Assembly (NCBI GenBank): GCA_018818835.1
Contig: JAHIRD010000094.1
Coordinates: forward strand, 1-56,951
Direction: 5' to 3'
DNA: 56,951 bases
From: Pseudomonadota bacterium
Lineage (GTDB): Bacteria > Desulfobacterota > Desulfobacteria > Desulfobacterales > Desulfolunaceae
Under the pieces are notes generated by a model. That model worked only from the letters and a program-made list of their open reading frames with translations. It did not search any database and was not told the DNA's origin. Shown one piece after another: positions 708 to 12,570 of the stretch (position 1 is the stretch's first letter; each line of letters starts with the position of its first letter). The position numbers were made by a program, and so were the translations under genes.

Positions 708-3062
708 TTATTGATCATTTTTTTTTGCAAGAGCAGAAATGAGGCGCTGAGCCTGACGGTTACCGGGTTCAGTGGTCAGAGCTTTCCTGTATTCCTCTAT
801 TGCCCGATAAGGGATCCCCAGTCTTTCATACATTTTCCCCGCCTGAATCCTCAATTGGGTATTGTCGGGAAGATAGGTAAGACCCAGGTTAATCATATCA
901 AGGGCACCCTGATTATCGTTTTGTTCGATCTTTTTTTTGTAGATCCGTGAGAACATCCAGGCAAAAACCTTTTCTTCATGACCAATATAGGCCAGTGCAT
1001 CATTTTCAATTTTACTGGCCCGGACAAGATCACCTTTTTTCAACAGGTAATCAGCAAGCGCATAGCGGGGTTTCAACCGTTCAGGCAGCCCAGTGATCAT
1101 GTCATCGGGCGAAAGGCCACTGTCCACCATGATAGCAATGCAGTCATTGATGTTTTTGGAATCGCCGTTGATTTCAAGGGCGCGTTTCAAGGTGGCCTGT
1201 CCTTTTTTTATGTCCCCGCTGTGCAGGAGAACAGCTCCGAAATGTTTATAATACTCAACATCGCTTTTTCCGAGAAGGAGGCCGGCCTCCATGAGCCGGG
1301 CCGCTGTTTCCAGTTCCCCTTTATAAAAAAATGAACGCCCCACCCTCTGGACAATGTCGCCTTGGGCAGGGGCCAGGGCCAGTGCCTTCCCATAGGAATC
1401 CATGGCGTCCTTATCACGACCGCTGTAATCATAGGCAAGTGCGCAGGCCATATGGTAACGGGCCTCAAGGGGATCTGCACCCACCGCTGAAAGGGCAGCG
1501 GCCAGAATGTACCGGAGATCCTCCTCGGGCATTCGCCCTGTCAGCTCCCTGTTTTCAACATCCATAAAACGGTAAGCACCCAGAAGCCCACCCCCATTAA
1601 ACCAGAGACTTCCTGAAAAAAGCACCAATAAAGCCGGAATCATTAAGCACATGGCCCTTTTTCCGACAGGATCAAGCCGGGTTGTCCCCTTTAGGTGAAA
1701 GCGTGTGTTTACAGCAGAAACAAGCAGTCCTGCCATGAAAAAGACGTACAGGGCATTGGCACCGCTGTAAAAATTAAAGTCGGACACGCTGTGCAGGAGG
1801 ATGGCCAGAATGCCTGAAAATGCCCCCCAGAAAAGATAAATCGCATAGACATCTTTTCTTTTTCCCAGAGCCTTAAATACATGCACAAACAAAGCGATCC
1901 AGAACCATAACACAAGAGCAATACCAATCACTCCACCAGTGACCGCAAGTTCCACATAATCATTATGGGCATGGTCAACGATACTGTCTCCGGGAAAGGT
2001 TCTGAAAGCAGGATAAATTGATCCAAAGGTGCCGAACCCACTTCCAAAAAGTGGGAAATCACGGATGATATTCAGGCTATCATTCCAGAAAATCATGCGT
2101 CCATTCAGATTGATGGTGTCCTGGGACAGGACCTCTCCAAATCGGGATACAAGAGCATCCCAGCCAAACCAGCTGACGGATAAAAGTAAAAGAAAAACAA
2201 AAAAAAGGGCTGACACGCCGTTATGATTCATTTTTTTCCCTTGCCTGATCATCAGGACAAAAACCATGGATGACAGACTCAGGCAGACCACGCCGCCCCG
2301 TGAAAGGCTTATAAACTGGGATGTCCCAAGAATAAGGGCTGAAAAGCCAAGAAGTATATGCCTGTTGGCCTTGGGCAAGGTGAACACCTCAATCACGCTC
2401 TCCTTGAAAGAGTTATAACTAAACATGGGCTTATAGTAGAAAAAAAGCGCCAGAACCAATGGGAAAATCATCTCCACAAATCCGGCGTAATGATTCTTAT
2501 ACACATAGGGTCCAATGTGGGTATTCCCCTCGGGAATCGTGAACAACCAGTAAATTTTCCCATTTGAGAAAAACCGTTCAATCAAGGCATAAACCCCTAT
2601 ACCCGCCCCAAGAAAGGCCAGAACCAGGAGTGTTTTCTTCAAACGCCGTCCGGACGCGAGAATCTGGATCGTGAGAATGTAAAGACATATACATGCCGAG
2701 AAACGGAACAATTCCCTGACCGTGGATTTAATATCAATGCTCAGTGGCATGAAATCAAGTGAACCCACCACCCCAGCGCTTTGGTTGTAGATATCATATG
2801 CAGCGGGAGATATCACCCGGACCAGATCTCCGGGAAGGGGTATGACCTGAAAAATAATATAACTCTGAAGGCATAAAAGAGCAGGCCAGCCAGGGACGTG
2901 ATAGAAGGTTTGACGGTTTTTAATCCCTGTCACACACAAAGAAAAAACGCCCATAAAGCACAACGCTTCCATCAGTCCCAGAGAGAGCATACCCCGTGTA
3001 CCCAGAGCAAGGGGAGAAAAAACCAGAACCGTGAGGAAGACTCCAAAAGGGAAAGCTCTCAT
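708..3062 (-). CDS. O-antigen ligase/polymerase (Wzy_C) family membrane protein with C-terminal TPRs
   Basis: This 784-residue protein has about 12 hydrophobic segments in its first 480 residues. It contains the Wzy_C/WaaL signature: a GRMIFWNDSLNIIRDFPLFG stretch, then FGTFGSIYP and the HAHNDYVEL motif with its conserved histidines and asparagine. The last ~290 residues are soluble and carry tetratricopeptide-like helices (for example around YHMACALAYDYSGRDKDA and the final AIEEYRKALTTEPGN). Members of this family polymerise or ligate lipid-linked glycans at the periplasmic face of the inner membrane. The TPR tail probably recruits partners. It is the first visible gene of the leftward exopolysaccharide operon, divergent from the export operon starting at 3575. 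Whether it is a Wzy polymerase or a ligase cannot be decided from sequence alone. Confidence 0.85.
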   Translation of the reverse strand: MRAFPFGVFLTVLVFSPLALGTRGMLSLGLMEALCFMGVFSLCVTGIKNRQTFYHVPGWPALLCLQSYIIFQVIPLPGDLVRVISPAAYDIYNQSAGVVGSLDFMPLSIDIKSTVRELFRFSACICLYILTIQILASGRRLKKTLLVLAFLGAGIGVYALIERFFSNGKIYWLFTIPEGNTHIGPYVYKNHYAGFVEMIFPLVLALFFYYKPMFSYNSFKESVIEVFTLPKANRHILLGFSALILGTSQFISLSRGGVVCLSLSSMVFVLMIRQGKKMNHNGVSALFFVFLLLLSVSWFGWDALVSRFGEVLSQDTINLNGRMIFWNDSLNIIRDFPLFGSGFGTFGSIYPAFRTFPGDSIVDHAHNDYVELAVTGGVIGIALVLWFWIALFVHVFKALGKRKDVYAIYLFWGAFSGILAILLHSVSDFNFYSGANALYVFFMAGLLVSAVNTRFHLKGTTRLDPVGKRAMCLMIPALLVLFSGSLWFNGGGLLGAYRFMDVENRELTGRMPEEDLRYILAAALSAVGADPLEARYHMACALAYDYSGRDKDAMDSYGKALALAPAQGDIVQRVGRSFFYKGELETAARLMEAGLLLGKSDVEYYKHFGAVLLHSGDIKKGQATLKRALEINGDSKNINDCIAIMVDSGLSPDDMITGLPERLKPRYALADYLLKKGDLVRASKIENDALAYIGHEEKVFAWMFSRIYKKKIEQNDNQGALDMINLGLTYLPDNTQLRIQAGKMYERLGIPYRAIEEYRKALTTEPGNRQAQRLISALAKKNDQ

Positions 3063-3574: not shown

Positions 3575-4510
3575 ATGATAAAACGATCGATTCACTCTCG
3601 AATAAATGCATTCTTTTTCTTGATCTTCTTTATGTCAGTCTCCGTTGTTAACCCTGCTTTTTCCGGAGACCCCGACTGGTTCAAAGCCCTGCAAAACAGC
3701 CTCAATTCCGGGGCCAAGGGAGAAAGCGGATCCGGGCTGGAAGAGGTTGTGGGCATGGCCATCAAATCAGGTGTCCAGATTTACGTCATTCTTCAAACCG
3801 CCGTGGCCATGGACAGCAATGCCGTTGACCAGGTTCTCAAGGCAAGCACCCTGGCTACCCGTGATCCGAACAGGGTTGTCAAGGCAGCCATTATTGCCAA
3901 CATTGATCCGGCCCAGATTCTGAAATCCGTGTTATCGGTCAGCCCGGATACTGAAACGGTCATTTCCGCCTGTATCAATGCCGGGGCGGATATCAATACC
4001 GTTATCAACGGATGCCTGGCCGCCGGTTCTGATCCTGTCACCATCGTTGCAGCATCCATGGCCGCAAGTCAGAATACGTCAGGAGTCATTGAGGCTGCTG
4101 TCAAGGCCCAGATACCACCCAGTGCCATTCTCCAGGCTGCGTTTTCAAGGGATCATAAAGACCTTGGCCCTGTGGTATCTGCCAGCATCAACGCCGGAGG
4201 CGATGCATATGAAACCACCGCCTCCGCCATTAATATGGGTTCGGACTGGCGTGGCATACTCATTTCCGCCCTTGGTTCCACCAATGATTACTATCCGGTG
4301 GTCAAAGCCACTCTTGACCAGAATGTGACCGGAGATGATATCATGGCCTGTGCTGCCACAGATCCATCAGTGGACCAGGACGCTGTGGCAAATGCCATTG
4401 AAACGGCCCAAGCAGCCCTGGCCTATACTCCTGCGTCTTCCCGGAGAAGACAGCAGCGGCGTGATGCCATGCGTCACCGCCATAGAAGACATAATGTGAG
4501 TCCTTATTGA
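3575..4510 (+). CDS. Exported protein built of ~15 tandem 14-residue repeats, function unknown
   Basis: This 311-residue protein has a clear signal peptide (basic start, hydrophobic run ending NPAFSG near residue 31). From about residue 55 to 285 it consists of successive 14-15-residue units of the pattern x-[VI]-[VIL]-x-A-a-[IL]-x-A-G-x-D-P-x; for instance TVISACINAGADIN is followed directly by TVINGCLAAGSDPV. Each unit could be one short helix plus a turn, giving a compact alpha solenoid. The C-terminal ~25 residues are strongly basic (SSRRRQQRRDAMRHRHRRH). I do not recognise the family. The units recall half an ankyrin repeat but are too short. It is first in the operon with a porin, a Wza-like protein and a Wzc-like kinase, so a periplasmic or surface role in polysaccharide export is likely. 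An anionic-polymer-binding basic tail is speculation. Confidence 0.85.
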   Translation: MIKRSIHSRINAFFFLIFFMSVSVVNPAFSGDPDWFKALQNSLNSGAKGESGSGLEEVVGMAIKSGVQIYVILQTAVAMDSNAVDQVLKASTLATRDPNRVVKAAIIANIDPAQILKSVLSVSPDTETVISACINAGADINTVINGCLAAGSDPVTIVAASMAASQNTSGVIEAAVKAQIPPSAILQAAFSRDHKDLGPVVSASINAGGDAYETTASAINMGSDWRGILISALGSTNDYYPVVKATLDQNVTGDDIMACAATDPSVDQDAVANAIETAQAALAYTPASSRRRQQRRDAMRHRHRRHNVSPY

Positions 4511-4623: not shown

Positions 4624-4640
4624 TACAAAAGGTGACCCCA

Positions 4641-5906
4641 GTGACCCGCCCTCTAATAAACAGATTCCTTTATTCATCAGTTGTTGTTCTGTGCCTCTTG
4701 TGTCTGCCCTGTACCGTTCTGGCGAGTGATCTCGATTTCAGCAGCCTGTTCGGAGACGGAAATCATATCCATCCCTTCATCACCCTTGAGACCACCTGGT
4801 CGGATAATATTTTCAAAACCAAGGATGACACAAAAAGTGATACTGTTATTTACACTAGCCCCGGAATCTGGTTTGCCCTTCCAGGTGCCGAGACCAAAGC
4901 CATCTCCGTGGAAACCGCCAGTGAATCCCCAGGCGGTGCCAGCCTGACCCGGTTTAACGACATGGATATGATTCGCTATCAGACTTATTTTCTGTACAAT
5001 CCCGAATTCGAAACCTATCTGGACAATACGGATCAAAACGATGTGAATCATAAAGCAGAAGGCTATTTCCTCTACAATTTTGCAGGTGGGCTTTCCATAG
5101 AACTTCTGGATCAGTTTATCGCGTCACACGATGACATTGCCCTGGGCCTGGACAATGTCAATTACAACAACAATTATCTATGCGGCACCCTGTCCTATGA
5201 TGTCACGGAAAAACTCCGTCTGCGCATGGACTACACCCAGTACGACGTAAATTATGAAAGTCTGGCCAACTACAAGGATCGCGTGGACAACACTCTGTCC
5301 TCATACATTTTTTTCAAGATTCAGCCCAAAACGTCCATCTTCTTCCAGTACTACAACACCGACATCAATTATGACATGGACACGGATCCCTTGAAATCCA
5401 TTGACAGTACGGAAAACGGTTATCTTGCAGGCGTAAGGTGGAACATCACGAACAAAACATCAGGAACATTCAAGGCCGGGTATCAGACCAAGGACTTTGA
5501 CCGCGCTTCCTTTGCAGATGTGAGCACCCTGAAGTTTGAATTGAACGCCAATTACGAGATCAGCGGTCACAGTTCATTGTCCCTGACCGCAAAAGATGAA
5601 CTTTCGGAAACCGATACGGATGATGCATATTATATCCAGGCAGACAGCCTGCTTGCTGTTTATGAACAGGCCCTAACGGAAAGGTTCACAGGATTTATGA
5701 GTGCCAATTATCTCCGGGAAGACTATGGGGATATTGACCGAACAGATACAACCCTTGACGTTTCCCCTTCCCTTTCGTATGTATTCAATAATCGTTTGAC
5801 ATTCAATGCAGCATACACCTATGAACATGTGAGTTCCTCAGGTTCTGACGCTGTGGATGATTATACCAAGAACACGATTCTATTGAGTGCATCGGCATCG
5901 TTTTAA
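4641..5906 (+). CDS. Outer-membrane beta-barrel porin (BBP2-like) of a polysaccharide export operon
   Basis: There are two in-frame GTG starts, at 4632 and 4641. The second is preferred because AAGGTG lies 6 bases before it, giving 421 residues. A signal peptide is present (hydrophobic run ending VLASD). The mature protein starts with FITLETTWSDNIFKTKDD and then shows many alternating-hydrophobicity strands rich in Tyr, Asp and Asn, ending in aromatic Phe (LLSASASF), as expected for an outer-membrane barrel. The N-terminal motif matches the putative beta-barrel porin 2 (BBP2) family, common in exopolysaccharide loci. In Myxococcus, beta-barrel Wzp proteins act as exit pores together with short OPX proteins. 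The short Wza-like neighbour at 5981 fits that arrangement, so this is a candidate polysaccharide exit pore. The pore role is inferred. Confidence 0.8.
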   Translation: MTRPLINRFLYSSVVVLCLLCLPCTVLASDLDFSSLFGDGNHIHPFITLETTWSDNIFKTKDDTKSDTVIYTSPGIWFALPGAETKAISVETASESPGGASLTRFNDMDMIRYQTYFLYNPEFETYLDNTDQNDVNHKAEGYFLYNFAGGLSIELLDQFIASHDDIALGLDNVNYNNNYLCGTLSYDVTEKLRLRMDYTQYDVNYESLANYKDRVDNTLSSYIFFKIQPKTSIFFQYYNTDINYDMDTDPLKSIDSTENGYLAGVRWNITNKTSGTFKAGYQTKDFDRASFADVSTLKFELNANYEISGHSSLSLTAKDELSETDTDDAYYIQADSLLAVYEQALTERFTGFMSANYLREDYGDIDRTDTTLDVSPSLSYVFNNRLTFNAAYTYEHVSSSGSDAVDDYTKNTILLSASASF

Positions 5907-5980: not shown

Positions 5981-6517
5981 GTGAATAAAACAATCTTTAG
6001 CGTCATTCTTATTATCGTTCTTTTTATAGCAGCCCCTATCTCAGGTCAGGACTTCAAAGTTGGCAGCGGTGACCGTCTGACGATCACCGTCTATGACCAT
6101 GACGACCTGTCCATGACCGTCAGAATCAGTGAAGAAGGAACCATAAAAGTCCCCTTCCTGGGTAATGTTTCGGTTGCCGGTCTAACCACAGCTGAGATCG
6201 CCAAAAAACTGACCATGGAATTTGTCACGCAGGAATACCTGGTCAACCCACAGATCACCGTATATATTGACGAATATAAAAGCCGTAAAGCAAGTATTTT
6301 AGGTGAGGTCAACAGACCGGGCCGGTATGAGCTTGAAGAGGATACCACCATCATGATTCTTGTGACCATGGCCTCGGGTTTTTCCCCCAAAGCATCCAAA
6401 AAATGCGCCAACATTATACGGAAAGTCGATGGAAAGAAAGTGATCTTTGAAAAAGTTGCCATGGATGAACTCGTTCTCCCCGGAGACATTGTGGTTATAC
6501 CTGAGAGTTTTTTCTGA
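5981..6517 (+). CDS. Short polysaccharide export protein (OPX/Wza-like)
   Basis: GTG start with AAGG five bases upstream; 178 residues. The signal peptide has no lipobox cysteine (ends APISGQDF). After it comes the polysaccharide-export (PES) domain, with the typical start FKVGSGDRLTITVYDHDDLS and YLVNPQITVYI. One SLBB-type domain follows (ASILGEVNRPGRYEL) and ends with PGDIVVIPESFF. E. coli Wza (about 379 residues) has further domains and a C-terminal helix crossing the outer membrane. These are absent here, so this protein is a periplasmic short OPX and needs another outer-membrane exit, probably the barrel encoded just upstream. The kinase gene follows after 33 bases. Confidence 0.88.
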   Translation: MNKTIFSVILIIVLFIAAPISGQDFKVGSGDRLTITVYDHDDLSMTVRISEEGTIKVPFLGNVSVAGLTTAEIAKKLTMEFVTQEYLVNPQITVYIDEYKSRKASILGEVNRPGRYELEEDTTIMILVTMASGFSPKASKKCANIIRKVDGKKVIFEKVAMDELVLPGDIVVIPESFF

Positions 6518-6550: not shown

Positions 6551-8734
6551 ATGCAAGAAAAAGAAATACATCTAAGAGATTATATCAGGGTGCTTCGCAA
6601 ACGGAAGCAAACTGTTTTCACCTTTTTCATCATCACCGTGACACTGGTCCTAATCGGGGTACTGACAACGTCCCAGGAGCCCATGTACCAGGCATCCACC
6701 CGGGTTCTGGTGGAGAAAAGCGACCCAAGTTCCCTTATTGAAGGCAGCTCATCTTATTACCGGTCATGGGACCCCGAATTCCTTGAAACCCAGGCCCAGA
6801 TCATCACAAGCTCATCCGTCGCACTGAAAGTGGTCAAGACCCTGTCCCTGGATACCACCTACAAACATTTATTCTTTGAGGATGAAGAAGAGGGACATAA
6901 CTCTTTTTCCATGGTCTCCACGGTCATAAACTGGGTCCGGTCTCTGACCCGTCCTGATCCGCCCGAAGAAACCGACTCGGCCGCCCCCATGTTTGAAAAA
7001 AATCAGGAAACAAGCCCGGCTGAAATCATTGCCCAAATGATCAGTCAAGGTATTGAGCTGACACCGGTCCGAGACACCCGCATCCTGGACATCTCGTTTC
7101 AATTCAAAAATCCTGTCATTGCCGAAATGATCGTCAATACCCTGGTCAAGGCCTACATTGAAGAGCTTCTGGACATGCGGATGCAGTCCTCCACCTACGC
7201 CATTCAATGGATGAGCCAGAAAGCCGATGAAGAACGGATCAAACTTGAAAAAGCGGAAAGTGAACTCTCCGCTTACATGCGTGCAAAGGACATCATTACC
7301 ATTGAAGACAAAATAACCATTGTCCCTCAAAAAATAACGGCCTTGAGTGATGAGCTCACCAAAGCGGAGACACGACGGAAAGAACTTGAAGCCATCATCG
7401 AGCAGCTGCGACGAGTATCCGTGGATGAAGCCGAAACCATTCCCGAAATATCCCAGCGGAAAACCCTCCAGGATATGAGAAAGGATTTGATCAAAGCGGA
7501 GCAGACCGTCACGGAATATTCAAAGAAATACGGTCGAAGGCATCCCCTGATGATCCGATCACTAAATGCCCTGAAAGTCATCCAGGAAAACCGTGTGCAG
7601 GAGCTCAAACGCCTGACCAAGGAGATTGCAAACGACTACGATCTGGCAAAGACCCGTGAAACCGATCTGACCCATCTGTTAAGCCAGGCCAAGGCCGAAG
7701 CCATCAACCTCAATGAAAAATACATCCAATATAAAATCCTGAAACGGGATGTGGAGACCAACCGGAGCCTGTACAATGCCCTGATATCAAAAATCAAGGA
7801 ACAGGCCGTATCCGAAAAGGTTCAAACCGTCAATGTGTGGACCATCGAAGCTGCCAAAACACCTGATATCCCCGTGAGCAGCCACAAAAAACGCAAACTC
7901 CTCCTGGGCCTTATTCTTGGGCTATTCGGCGGCATTGGCCTGGCTTTCTTTATCGAGTATCTGGACAATACCATCAAATCCGTGGAAGAAACGGAACAGC
8001 GCTTAGGCACTCCGGTTCTGGGTGTCATCTCCCTGCTTAAGGGAAATACCGATCAAATCGAACATGTGGTTACAAACGAACCCCTTTCCGCCATTTCTGA
8101 AAACTACAAAGCCATTCGGACATCCATACTCCTGTCCTCGGCCGATCGTCCCCCAGCCTGCCTGCTTGTGACCAGCATGGCCCCCAGAGAGGGTAAAACC
8201 ACAACCGTTTCAAATCTGGCCTCGGCCCTGGCCCAGTCCGGAAAAAAAGTCGTGATTATTGATGGTGACCTGAGACGTCCCCGGATTCACAAGGTGTTTA
8301 ACATTGCCAACACATCGGGTCTGAGCACACATCTTGCCGGAAGTGACAGCCCCATCATTGTGGGAAAAAATCTCCCGGACGGTATCCTTGTTATCCCCTC
8401 GGGCCCCATTCCGCCGGACCCCTCGGAGCTCCTGGGATCGGCCCGTCTTAACACCCTGATCTCGAATCTCAAAAAGAACGTGGATATCATCCTCATTGAT
8501 TCACCGCCTCTTTTATCCGTATCCGACGGCTTGATCCTGAGTACCCAGACCGACGGTGTCCTGATCGTTACAAGGGCCGGAATGACCACCTATGAAATAG
8601 CCGGAAAAGGCCTCAAACAACTCAAGGATGTCAACGCCCACATCACCGGCCTTATCATCAATGGGGCAAACATCACGAAAAACAGCTATGATTATTATGG
8701 CTACGGCTACTATGCCTATGACACCAAGGAATAA
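6551..8734 (+). CDS. Polysaccharide co-polymerase with bacterial tyrosine kinase domain (Wzc/EpsB-like)
   Basis: This 727-residue inner-membrane protein has TM1 near residues 20-42, a long periplasmic Wzz-type region with coiled-coil segments (about 200-430) and TM2 near 447-467. A cytoplasmic BY-kinase domain follows: Walker A APREGKTTT with Lys549, Walker A' IIDGD with Asp571, and Walker B ILIDSPP with Asp650. The tail holds seven tyrosines (YDYYGYGYYAYDTKE), the usual autophosphorylation cluster. Such proteins control chain length and couple synthesis to export by cycles of phosphorylation. It is last in the export operon and is followed by a terminator at 8764-8799. No cognate tyrosine phosphatase gene is seen in the window. 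Confidence 0.95.
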   Translation: MQEKEIHLRDYIRVLRKRKQTVFTFFIITVTLVLIGVLTTSQEPMYQASTRVLVEKSDPSSLIEGSSSYYRSWDPEFLETQAQIITSSSVALKVVKTLSLDTTYKHLFFEDEEEGHNSFSMVSTVINWVRSLTRPDPPEETDSAAPMFEKNQETSPAEIIAQMISQGIELTPVRDTRILDISFQFKNPVIAEMIVNTLVKAYIEELLDMRMQSSTYAIQWMSQKADEERIKLEKAESELSAYMRAKDIITIEDKITIVPQKITALSDELTKAETRRKELEAIIEQLRRVSVDEAETIPEISQRKTLQDMRKDLIKAEQTVTEYSKKYGRRHPLMIRSLNALKVIQENRVQELKRLTKEIANDYDLAKTRETDLTHLLSQAKAEAINLNEKYIQYKILKRDVETNRSLYNALISKIKEQAVSEKVQTVNVWTIEAAKTPDIPVSSHKKRKLLLGLILGLFGGIGLAFFIEYLDNTIKSVEETEQRLGTPVLGVISLLKGNTDQIEHVVTNEPLSAISENYKAIRTSILLSSADRPPACLLVTSMAPREGKTTTVSNLASALAQSGKKVVIIDGDLRRPRIHKVFNIANTSGLSTHLAGSDSPIIVGKNLPDGILVIPSGPIPPDPSELLGSARLNTLISNLKKNVDIILIDSPPLLSVSDGLILSTQTDGVLIVTRAGMTTYEIAGKGLKQLKDVNAHITGLIINGANITKNSYDYYGYGYYAYDTKE

Positions 8735-12285: not shown

Positions 12286-12570
12286 ATGAAAATGTTGAAA
12301 TGGAGTCTTCTTGTGGTTGTTCTTGTGGTTGTCATGGGCCTGGTTTCCGGTTCAACCTGCAAAGCCAGCGATGCGAAAAGTCCCGATGACACCGTAATGA
12401 CCGATGATGAAGCGACTTCCGGTTCAGGTGATTATGTTGAAGATGACAGCTCTGACGAAGAGAACTATACAGGAAGCGGCGATCTTTATGAAGAAAATGA
12501 TGCCAGCCCCAATGACGACTTAAAAGAAGAAGAGTCGCCCGAGCCTGAATCAGGTGACATGAACGAATAA
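12286..12570 (+). CDS. Small secreted polyacidic, low-complexity protein
   Basis: This 94-residue protein has a basic start (MKMLKW), a strongly hydrophobic segment (LLVVVLVVVMGLVSG) and a likely signal-peptidase site near CKASDA. The cysteine context (SGSTC) is not a good lipobox. The remaining ~65 residues are nearly all Asp, Glu, Ser, Gly, Pro and Asn, with degenerate SGSGDY-VEDD / GSGDLYEEND / ESGDMNE units, so the mature protein should be disordered and very acidic. Start support: AGGGGA eight bases before the ATG. I do not recognise it. It is the only gene behind the sigma-54 promoter at 12130, just after a sigma-54 activator gene. Cation binding, matrix or surface roles are all possible. 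Confidence 0.75.
   Translation: MKMLKWSLLVVVLVVVMGLVSGSTCKASDAKSPDDTVMTDDEATSGSGDYVEDDSSDEENYTGSGDLYEENDASPNDDLKEEESPEPESGDMNE

Follow-up and report, generated by a model that had tools for sequence, protein, structure and literature searches.

A secreted protein of 14-residue repeats, predicted to fold as an alpha-solenoid, is encoded directly before the BBP2 barrel of a polysaccharide export locus

The window (the whole stretch of DNA analysed, 56,951 nucleotides) encodes an exported repeat protein, followed on the same strand by a BBP2-type outer-membrane beta-barrel, a short OPX protein and a co-polymerase with a BY-kinase domain, with a Wzy_C gene as the divergent neighbour. The features of this locus are as follows:

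708..3062, minus strand: Wzy_C (O-antigen ligase/polymerase) protein with C-terminal TPRs, divergent neighbour (PF04932, 8e-20; TPR models)
3575..4510, plus strand: coding sequence of the repeat protein, 311 codons for 311 aa (open reading frame list; orthologues; single copy in the genome)
3575..3664, plus strand: signal peptide, approximately residues 1-30, without Cys (read by eye from the sequence)
3674..3859, plus strand: N-terminal helices of irregular spacing, including the conserved Trp35 (AlphaFold2 model; Trp conserved in ≥90% of the 12 members aligned)
3860..4366, plus strand: 12 short-helix units, mostly of 14 residues (self-comparison, AlphaFold2 model)
4376..4423, plus strand: C-terminal helix closing the solenoid, then an A-L-A-Y-T-P junction (AlphaFold2 model)
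4424..4492, plus strand: basic linker of low confidence, its charge unconserved in relatives (block pLDDT falling from 65 to 49)
4493..4507, plus strand: C-terminal motif NVSPY, near-terminal S-P conserved (alignment, end counts)
4632..5906, plus strand: BBP2_2 outer-membrane beta-barrel, EpsL-related, putative partner (Pfam PF10082, E 3.3e-20)
5981..6517, plus strand: short OPX protein, 178 aa (Poly_export, PF02563, 1.7e-21; SLBB, PF10531, 2.5e-9)
6551..8734, plus strand: Wzz/GNVR co-polymerase with BY-kinase domain (PF13807, PF02706; TIGR01007 above cut-off)

A composite OPX/beta-barrel translocon, consisting of a barrel and a periplasmic OPX protein, was proposed in 2022 by Schwabe et al., the available sections of which give an OPX size of at most 280 aa (PMC9601211), and Class 3 OPX/porin pairs are described in the available sections of PMC9603273. 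In the window, the 178-aa OPX protein is encoded directly after the PF10082 barrel, within the limits of an OPX protein of at most 280 aa and a barrel gene no more than five genes away; judged by its genes, the locus is the gene set of both the composite translocon and the Class 3 pairs. The first-pass annotation had placed the repeat protein in a polysaccharide export operon, and the BBP2, short OPX and Wzc/BY-kinase genes bear this out. The barrel is the sole BBP2_2 match in its genome and scores 67.2 bits against EpsL (TIGR03014), for which the curated cut-off is 275, making it a relative rather than an equivalog. The OPX sequence ends in VVIPESFF soon after the SLBB match, as read from the sequence only; VPESFF-like C-termini were seen in many of the short OPX proteins examined and perhaps form a second terminal contact of the translocon. 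Elsewhere, the 57-kb window carries, among other genes, a sigma-54 regulator, a cluster of division and cell-wall genes and, at 12286-12570, a gene for a small, very acidic protein of 94 aa, rich in Ser/Asp/Glu, whose start resembles a signal peptide and which matches no Pfam family.

The repeat protein, present in one copy in its genome, fills an exact open reading frame of 311 aa and begins with a signal peptide recognisable by eye, as expected of the exported protein described at first reading; cleavage is putatively placed, also by eye, between AFS and GDP, and residues 1-60 contain no Cys. Its self-comparison gave a best lag of 14 (mean BLOSUM62 z 8.7), followed by lags of 28 (z 5.8) and 42 (z 5.2), and the hydropathy periodogram peaked at 14.0, in line with the 14-residue period read originally. 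The best z was matched by none of 2000 shuffles, which, together with a confident predicted fold, rules out low complexity or chance as the source of the repeat. In-register units include RDPNRVVKAAIIAN, IDPAQILKSVLSVS, PDTETVISACINAG, ADINTVINGCLAAG and SDPVTIVAASMAAS, and the loose unit can be written x-D-[PT]-x-x-[VI]-[VIL]-x-[AS]-[AC]-[IL]-x-A-[GNS], with D in 8 of 11 units. Four orthologues showed a best lag of 28 or 29, lag 14 ranking within their top three. The Y/F-T junction that follows the solenoid recurs, by eye, in the proteins of relatives. The basic tail noted earlier is real (net +8 across 28 residues), but no role for it is supported, since its charge is unconserved: across 42 proteins with a Ser-Pro (SP) tail, the last 30 residues carry net charges from -10 to +8, the basic tail being private to the window genome. 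This range also rules out polymer binding by a basic tail as a family trait. An NVSPY-type SP end occurs in one of 43 window open reading frames, namely the repeat protein; the first-pass annotation had missed this conserved C-terminal Ser-Pro, which is common to other domains in the same slot. PEP-CTERM/exosortase sorting was considered and rejected, as the last 28 residues carry a net charge of +8 with no hydrophobic helix and the protein has no NCBIfam match.

AlphaFold2, given four sequences only (the window protein and three Desulfoluna relatives), predicted a tight alpha-solenoid for the window protein, with roughly one helix of 10 residues for every 14 (mean pLDDT 85.9, pTM 0.75), as anticipated for repeats of one helix and turn each. 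The model contains 12 helices with starts 13-16 residues apart, 9 of the 11 intervals being exactly 14, preceded by one N-terminal helix and three less regular helices; the original count of about fifteen repeats is fair if the irregular helices are added to the 12 regular ones. Approximately the last 30 residues are of low confidence, including a helix drawn in the basic linker. The model of the Desulfoluna limicola protein (mean pLDDT 85.4, likewise from four sequences) comprises 11 helices exactly 14 apart, with pLDDT blocks of 93-97 from residues 61 to 220. The regular 14-residue spacing in both models indicates that one repeat corresponds to a helix and a turn, and a hairpin to two repeats.

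Foldseek comparison with solved structures returned no match at E ≤0.001 and 449 at E up to 10. The best VIA-align matches were Z 8.8 (7mwr_B, 3.2 Å over 132) and Z 8.6 (5cwb, 2.7 Å over 114) for the window model and Z 10.5 (8cws_A, 4.3 Å over 203) for the D. limicola model, values that fall where, by the tool's own description, helical repeats commonly score. Natural solenoids in these lists were unremarkable, with clathrin at Z 6.7 (5.6 Å over 204) and TOG, PPR and TPR proteins at about Z 5-6; AlgK, PgaA and BcsC were absent among the best 50 matches of either model, an absence that excludes nothing. The window sequence gave no match to PDB sequences at E up to 10, and a profile of the five orthologues matched the designed toroids dTor_12x31L (E 1.6e-10) and dTor_9x31L (3e-8), in scores summed over repeats with no single stretch passing, and otherwise two unrelated chains weakly (E 0.013 and 0.3). 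The closest solved structures are mostly designed helical repeats (DHR4, 8cws/8cwy and the dTor toroids), whose sequences are designed and whose units are longer (31 residues by name in dTor) than the 14 of the window protein. This likeness describes what the solenoid resembles and is no proof of a new fold.

No Pfam family, including the known alpha-solenoid repeat families, matched the window protein at E up to 1 in what is a sequence test, nor did any NCBIfam model, consistent with the earlier remark that no repeat family with this unit is known in export loci. The five orthologues had no Pfam match above cut-off and none of TPR type, so that a TPR or other Pfam repeat is excluded by sequence for the window protein and its orthologues. 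Seven distant members likewise had no match above cut-off in Pfam or NCBIfam, and a search of a collection of genome contigs with the window protein returned no relative. In the literature searched, no account was found of a 14-residue alpha-solenoid repeat protein, and nothing was found that joins BBP2 with OPX in polysaccharide export, or FecR with an outer-membrane barrel, exopolysaccharide and tetratricopeptide.

Matches to the repeat protein at E up to 0.01 were obtained in 6 of 96 genomes, its own included; one of these, a weak match in G023 (E 0.009), was dropped because of three stops in frame. Identity to the window protein was 49% for the orthologue of G001 and 22-25% for those of Desulfoluna butyratoxydans, D. 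limicola and D. spongiiphila (G003, G004 and G005; Thermodesulfobacteriota, Desulfobacterales, Desulfolunaceae at NCBI). The loci of G001, G004 and G005, examined over their full length, follow the order repeat protein, BBP2, OPX and Wzc (neighbours by eye), with Wzy_C-like genes close by in all three (by eye); in G003 the repeat-protein gene is followed by BBP2. The C-termini of the window protein, of G001 and of the Desulfoluna group read NVSPY, NVSVY, DASPN, DVSPN and DVSPN, the Pro having been lost in G001. Neither repeat protein nor barrel was matched in G002 and G006, which also belong to the Desulfolunaceae, and in G007 the barrel was matched and the repeat protein was not. Within the class, the five-orthologue profile matched 4 of 291 genomes, the fourth being G205.

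When the window BBP2 barrel itself was the query, 22 of the 96 relatives had a match, as did 54 of 389 genomes across the order and 20 of 395 across the phylum. In many families, the product of the gene directly upstream of BBP2 is secreted and has a Trp close to the start of the mature chain, short segments that look helical, a [YF]-T junction, a linker that is Pro/Gly-rich, acidic or basic, and a near-terminal Ser-Pro. Examples of these ends are IASPS, VASPTKP, IVSPIRP, IISPSRP, VISPKRP, SSPSAS, ASPSTF, SVSPSKVQ, ILSPSL and VASPPF. In an alignment of 12 such proteins, chosen by their position upstream of BBP2, conservation of 90% or more was confined to Met1, the Trp, and the S and P of the tail. 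The BBP2-first survey covered 79 places, of which 9 had no upstream DNA and 70 were counted. An SP within the last 8 residues was found in 42 of the 70 upstream proteins when the nearest open reading frame of at least 120 aa was taken (rule B) and in 41 when the longest was taken (rule A), and 19 of 29 families had the SP end in at least one locus. The same end was seen in 15 of 695 control open reading frames and in 1 of 116 signal-peptide-like controls; the controls were drawn from two genomes only (G004 and G203), each sampled in 20-kb stretches that number 40 in all, and possibly include spurious frames, and the signal-peptide filter was a crude hydropathy rule that passed only 41 of the 70 rule-A proteins. 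The corresponding Fisher values of 2e-36 (rule A) and 1e-37 (rule B) overstate the case, as the tail was first spotted by eye in part of the set and the loci are non-independent. Within the upstream proteins, SP occurred 45 times in 476 terminal positions against 39 times in 15841 others, and the tail Ser was most commonly the fifth residue from the end, itself counted (19 of 43). The script recorded SP as missing in 28 of the 70, three of which are misassignments with a tail visible by eye (L067, L008 and L095); two further genomes left out of the 70, G338 (ending GIASPS) and G245 (an end without SP), bring the count to 43 of 72. Start codons and gene calls were mechanical throughout. The Ser was retained in some ends that have lost SP (NVSVY, SVSAP and YTSQSRF). 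An OPX-like motif followed the barrel in 38 of 45 loci with the tail and in 21 of 25 without, using a crude motif that missed OPX genes in three loci; being equally frequent in both groups, it does not discriminate the partner of the tail.

The relation of these upstream proteins to the window protein was assessed with a 42-column profile built from the window and D. limicola repeats only. It matched upstream proteins of three other families at E <1e-4 (G205, G088 and G417) and none of 695 controls; with E relaxed to 1, its matches were 9 of the 62 non-family upstream proteins and 2 of the 695 controls, most upstream proteins going unrecognised. After three rounds of iteration, the counts were 13 of 62 against 0 of 695 at E ≤0.01 and 17 against 2 at 0.1, figures favoured by design, the profile having been extended with upstream proteins only. 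With hhalign, the five orthologues aligned to the upstream families f35 (E 4.7e-5, probability 68), f165 (5.4e-5, 67), f59 (3.2e-4, 39) and f149 (0.0028, 11), and f35 aligned to f59 (1.7e-27), f149 (3.7e-9) and f165 (3.6e-6). As far as sequence comparison goes, the window family has a weak to moderate link to the short upstream proteins, and it is plausible, not proven, that the shortest members share ancestry with it. The profile comparisons show a divergent set with the window protein as its long and regular extreme.

The reverse approach, in which a profile of seven repeat proteins was searched against 395 phylum genomes at E up to 0.001, matched 9 genomes, in all of which a BBP2 barrel is the next gene, and the proposed co-occurrence with BBP2 thus held up in a profile search. 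Four were already known (the window genome itself, G417, G721 and G749); the other five (G495, G595, G700, G711 and G728) had gone unmatched in the window-BBP2 search at E up to 1e-10. The SP tail is present in 7 of the 9 and missing in G700 and G721. The five new genomes provide the fairer test: their next gene is a BBP2_2 barrel above the Pfam cut-off in 5 of 5, and the tail is present in 4 of 5 (VSPAR, VASPAR, VASPSS and VASPAM), the protein of G700 ending TASRSR. Conversely, the repeat profile matched only 4 of the 20 phylum genomes with a BBP2 match. In G595 (L155, 4102-9895, reverse), the solenoid and BBP2 genes are followed by two open reading frames without, by eye, any resemblance to OPX, and a solenoid-barrel pair may exist there without an adjacent OPX gene.

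The slot upstream of BBP2 is also occupied by proteins of other folds. FecR-domain proteins are found there in G119 (L069, 156-1049; PF04773, 8.5e-13; end ISPYSPATE) and G399 (L093, 2-1198; FecR, 1.8e-7; end SVSPYKTCP), and in G544 (L097, 2-844; end ASPSS) FecR falls just below cut-off, as do two cupin models. These proteins share with the solenoid protein both the slot before BBP2 and the C-terminal SP, the FecR domain replacing the helical solenoid, which indicates that the tail is tied to the slot rather than to a single fold. In some phylum loci, the slot holds unrelated genes or short Cys-rich proteins instead; short secreted Cys-containing proteins directly precede BBP2 at L048 673-1044 and L056 967-1272 (reverse orientation), and at L039 2800-3126 and L026 3026-3487. 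PEP-CTERM-looking proteins were noted by eye two genes upstream of BBP2 (L025 207-938 and L026 3426-4190), which suggests that some BBP2 loci are exosortase-linked. The barrels themselves vary at the N-terminus: those of f59 carry extensions of about 200 residues or more (L074 1184-3148; L077 3774-6149 and L071 1130-2998, both reverse), two of the three with repeated NTGNx[SP]LTGI-like segments, and in those of f35 (L046, L049, L050 and L053) the barrel is preceded by low-complexity, often repeated P-x-G-Q-S segments. A search for the window barrel on plasmids gave 6 records, of which 3 were examined (Vibrio, Pseudoalteromonas and Indioceanicola). The BBP2 loci of the gammaproteobacteria Vibrio and Pseudoalteromonas lack the repeat-protein gene and have a glycosyl phosphotransferase directly upstream (in Vibrio by eye from the translation), and that of Indioceanicola has no repeat-protein-like gene in the stretch examined. 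The barrel and OPX protein can therefore work without the repeat protein, which is a lineage feature and no universal part.

In synthase-dependent export, a TPR solenoid, either AlgK or a domain of PgaA itself, serves the porin and binds polymer and partner enzymes, according to the portions available of PMC9734138 and PMC9384988, the former of which also reports that AlgK affects porin localisation. A composite EpsX/EpsY translocon has been described with a barrel and an OPX protein, and the schemes of composite translocons in the available sections of that account show no TPR module on that side (PMC9601211); a further secreted component is not named for the composite translocon in those sections, nor in those of PMC9603273. 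As far as the genes go, the window locus resembles AlgK-AlgE and PgaA in coupling a helical-repeat protein or domain to a polysaccharide-exporting barrel, here the BBP2_2 protein encoded by the next gene. Unlike in those systems, the window protein has no TPR/Sel1 match, consists of 14-residue single-helix units, lacks a lipobox and bears a Ser-Pro tail, and its locus includes OPX and Wzc. With EpsX/EpsY (WzpX/WzaX) of Myxococcus xanthus and VpsM/VpsN of Vibrio, it shares the BBP2-type barrel, the short OPX protein and the BY-kinase co-polymerase, and differs in the additional secreted protein that precedes the barrel, which the Vibrio and Pseudoalteromonas loci lack. A helical-repeat partner of a polysaccharide porin is a known type, and what appears to be new, going by the databases searched, is the repeat itself, unlisted in Pfam and NCBIfam, together with its setting in an export class for which the available sections of PMC9601211 and PMC9603273 mention no such partner.

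Taken together, the repeat protein is probably an overlooked part of the polysaccharide export machine. The reading preferred here, to which a probability of about 45% is given, is that it is a third, unlisted component of the composite OPX/beta-barrel translocon, acting as a tail-tethered helical adaptor or scaffold in the periplasm. The protein would be exported by Sec and fold in the periplasm into a tight alpha-solenoid of 14-residue single-helix repeats, which a flexible linker and the terminal Ser-Pro tail would hold at the translocon, likeliest at the periplasmic face of the BBP2 barrel that the next gene encodes. The solenoid would there connect the OPX/Wzc assembly to the barrel, and might guide the polymer as well, a role that would correspond to that of the TPR solenoids AlgK and PgaA in synthase-dependent export; lining or capping of the export path, or polymer binding, as first envisaged, may also be among its functions. 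A linker of varying charge with a conserved end is as expected of a tether, and a secreted solenoid encoded before the barrel, with a flexible linker and a conserved end, fits the role of a TPR solenoid. The periplasmic location, the docking of the tail, its partner and the scaffold function are all inferred, and adjacency alone is no proof that the tail is bound by BBP2 and not by OPX or Wzy_C.

In a rival reading, the tail is a glycan acceptor. Disordered C-termini rich in Ser-Pro/Ala typically serve as O-linked acceptors, and TfpO modifies a C-terminal Ser of pilin. By analogy, a Wzy_C/WaaL/PglL/TfpO-type ligase could join a polysaccharide or glycan to the C-terminal Ser of the repeat protein, making it a polymer carrier or anchor. 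The divergent Wzy_C gene, the similar genes near three orthologous loci and the Ser kept in ends without SP are all in keeping with this; yet Wzy_C is needed as a polymerase anyway, so that finding it tells little, the Ser is not terminal but most often stands fifth from the end, and the neighbours of f35 are, by eye, different genes. Such an acceptor role is considered unlikely. A location outside the cell, where a matrix or surface protein encoded with the exporter would bind the exported polysaccharide, would suit a Cys-less signal peptide, acidic Ala/Gly-rich repeats in variable number and the lack of any family or enzyme match. It is given a low probability, as the kept position before the barrel and the short end conserved after an unconserved linker suggest docking, and FecR-domain proteins with the same end take the place of the repeat protein in some loci.

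The position directly before the barrel gene in all 9 repeat-first genomes, and a linker and tail that could reach a partner, would equally be accounted for if the protein were a gate, a plug or a folding/stability factor of BBP2, with the tail entering or capping the barrel whenever no polymer is in transit; for AlgK, the available sections of PMC9734138 describe a contribution to the localisation of AlgE. A repeat number varying widely, from a few to about 12-15 by eye, would however be needless for a folding factor, and a plug is without structural support, making this reading, too, improbable. A bolder version of the adaptor reading, held tentatively and with some doubt, takes the C-terminal [A/I/V/S]-S-P-x-x-(P/F) end to be a portable docking code of composite polysaccharide translocons, which would plug varied periplasmic adaptors into the same barrel/OPX machinery, the 14-residue solenoid being a new scaffold class that replaces the TPR module missing from this third type of export system. 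If this were true, 14-residue solenoids, other helical domains and FecR domains would all be adaptors sharing one terminal peptide.

The repeat protein and its relatives form a family built on a very short natural solenoid unit; both the family and the unit are missing from Pfam and NCBIfam. Synthase-dependent exporters use a helical scaffold, and the window locus offers a candidate scaffold for the composite translocon, in which the short terminal peptide makes the link from OPX to barrel and the feeding of the polymer directly testable.
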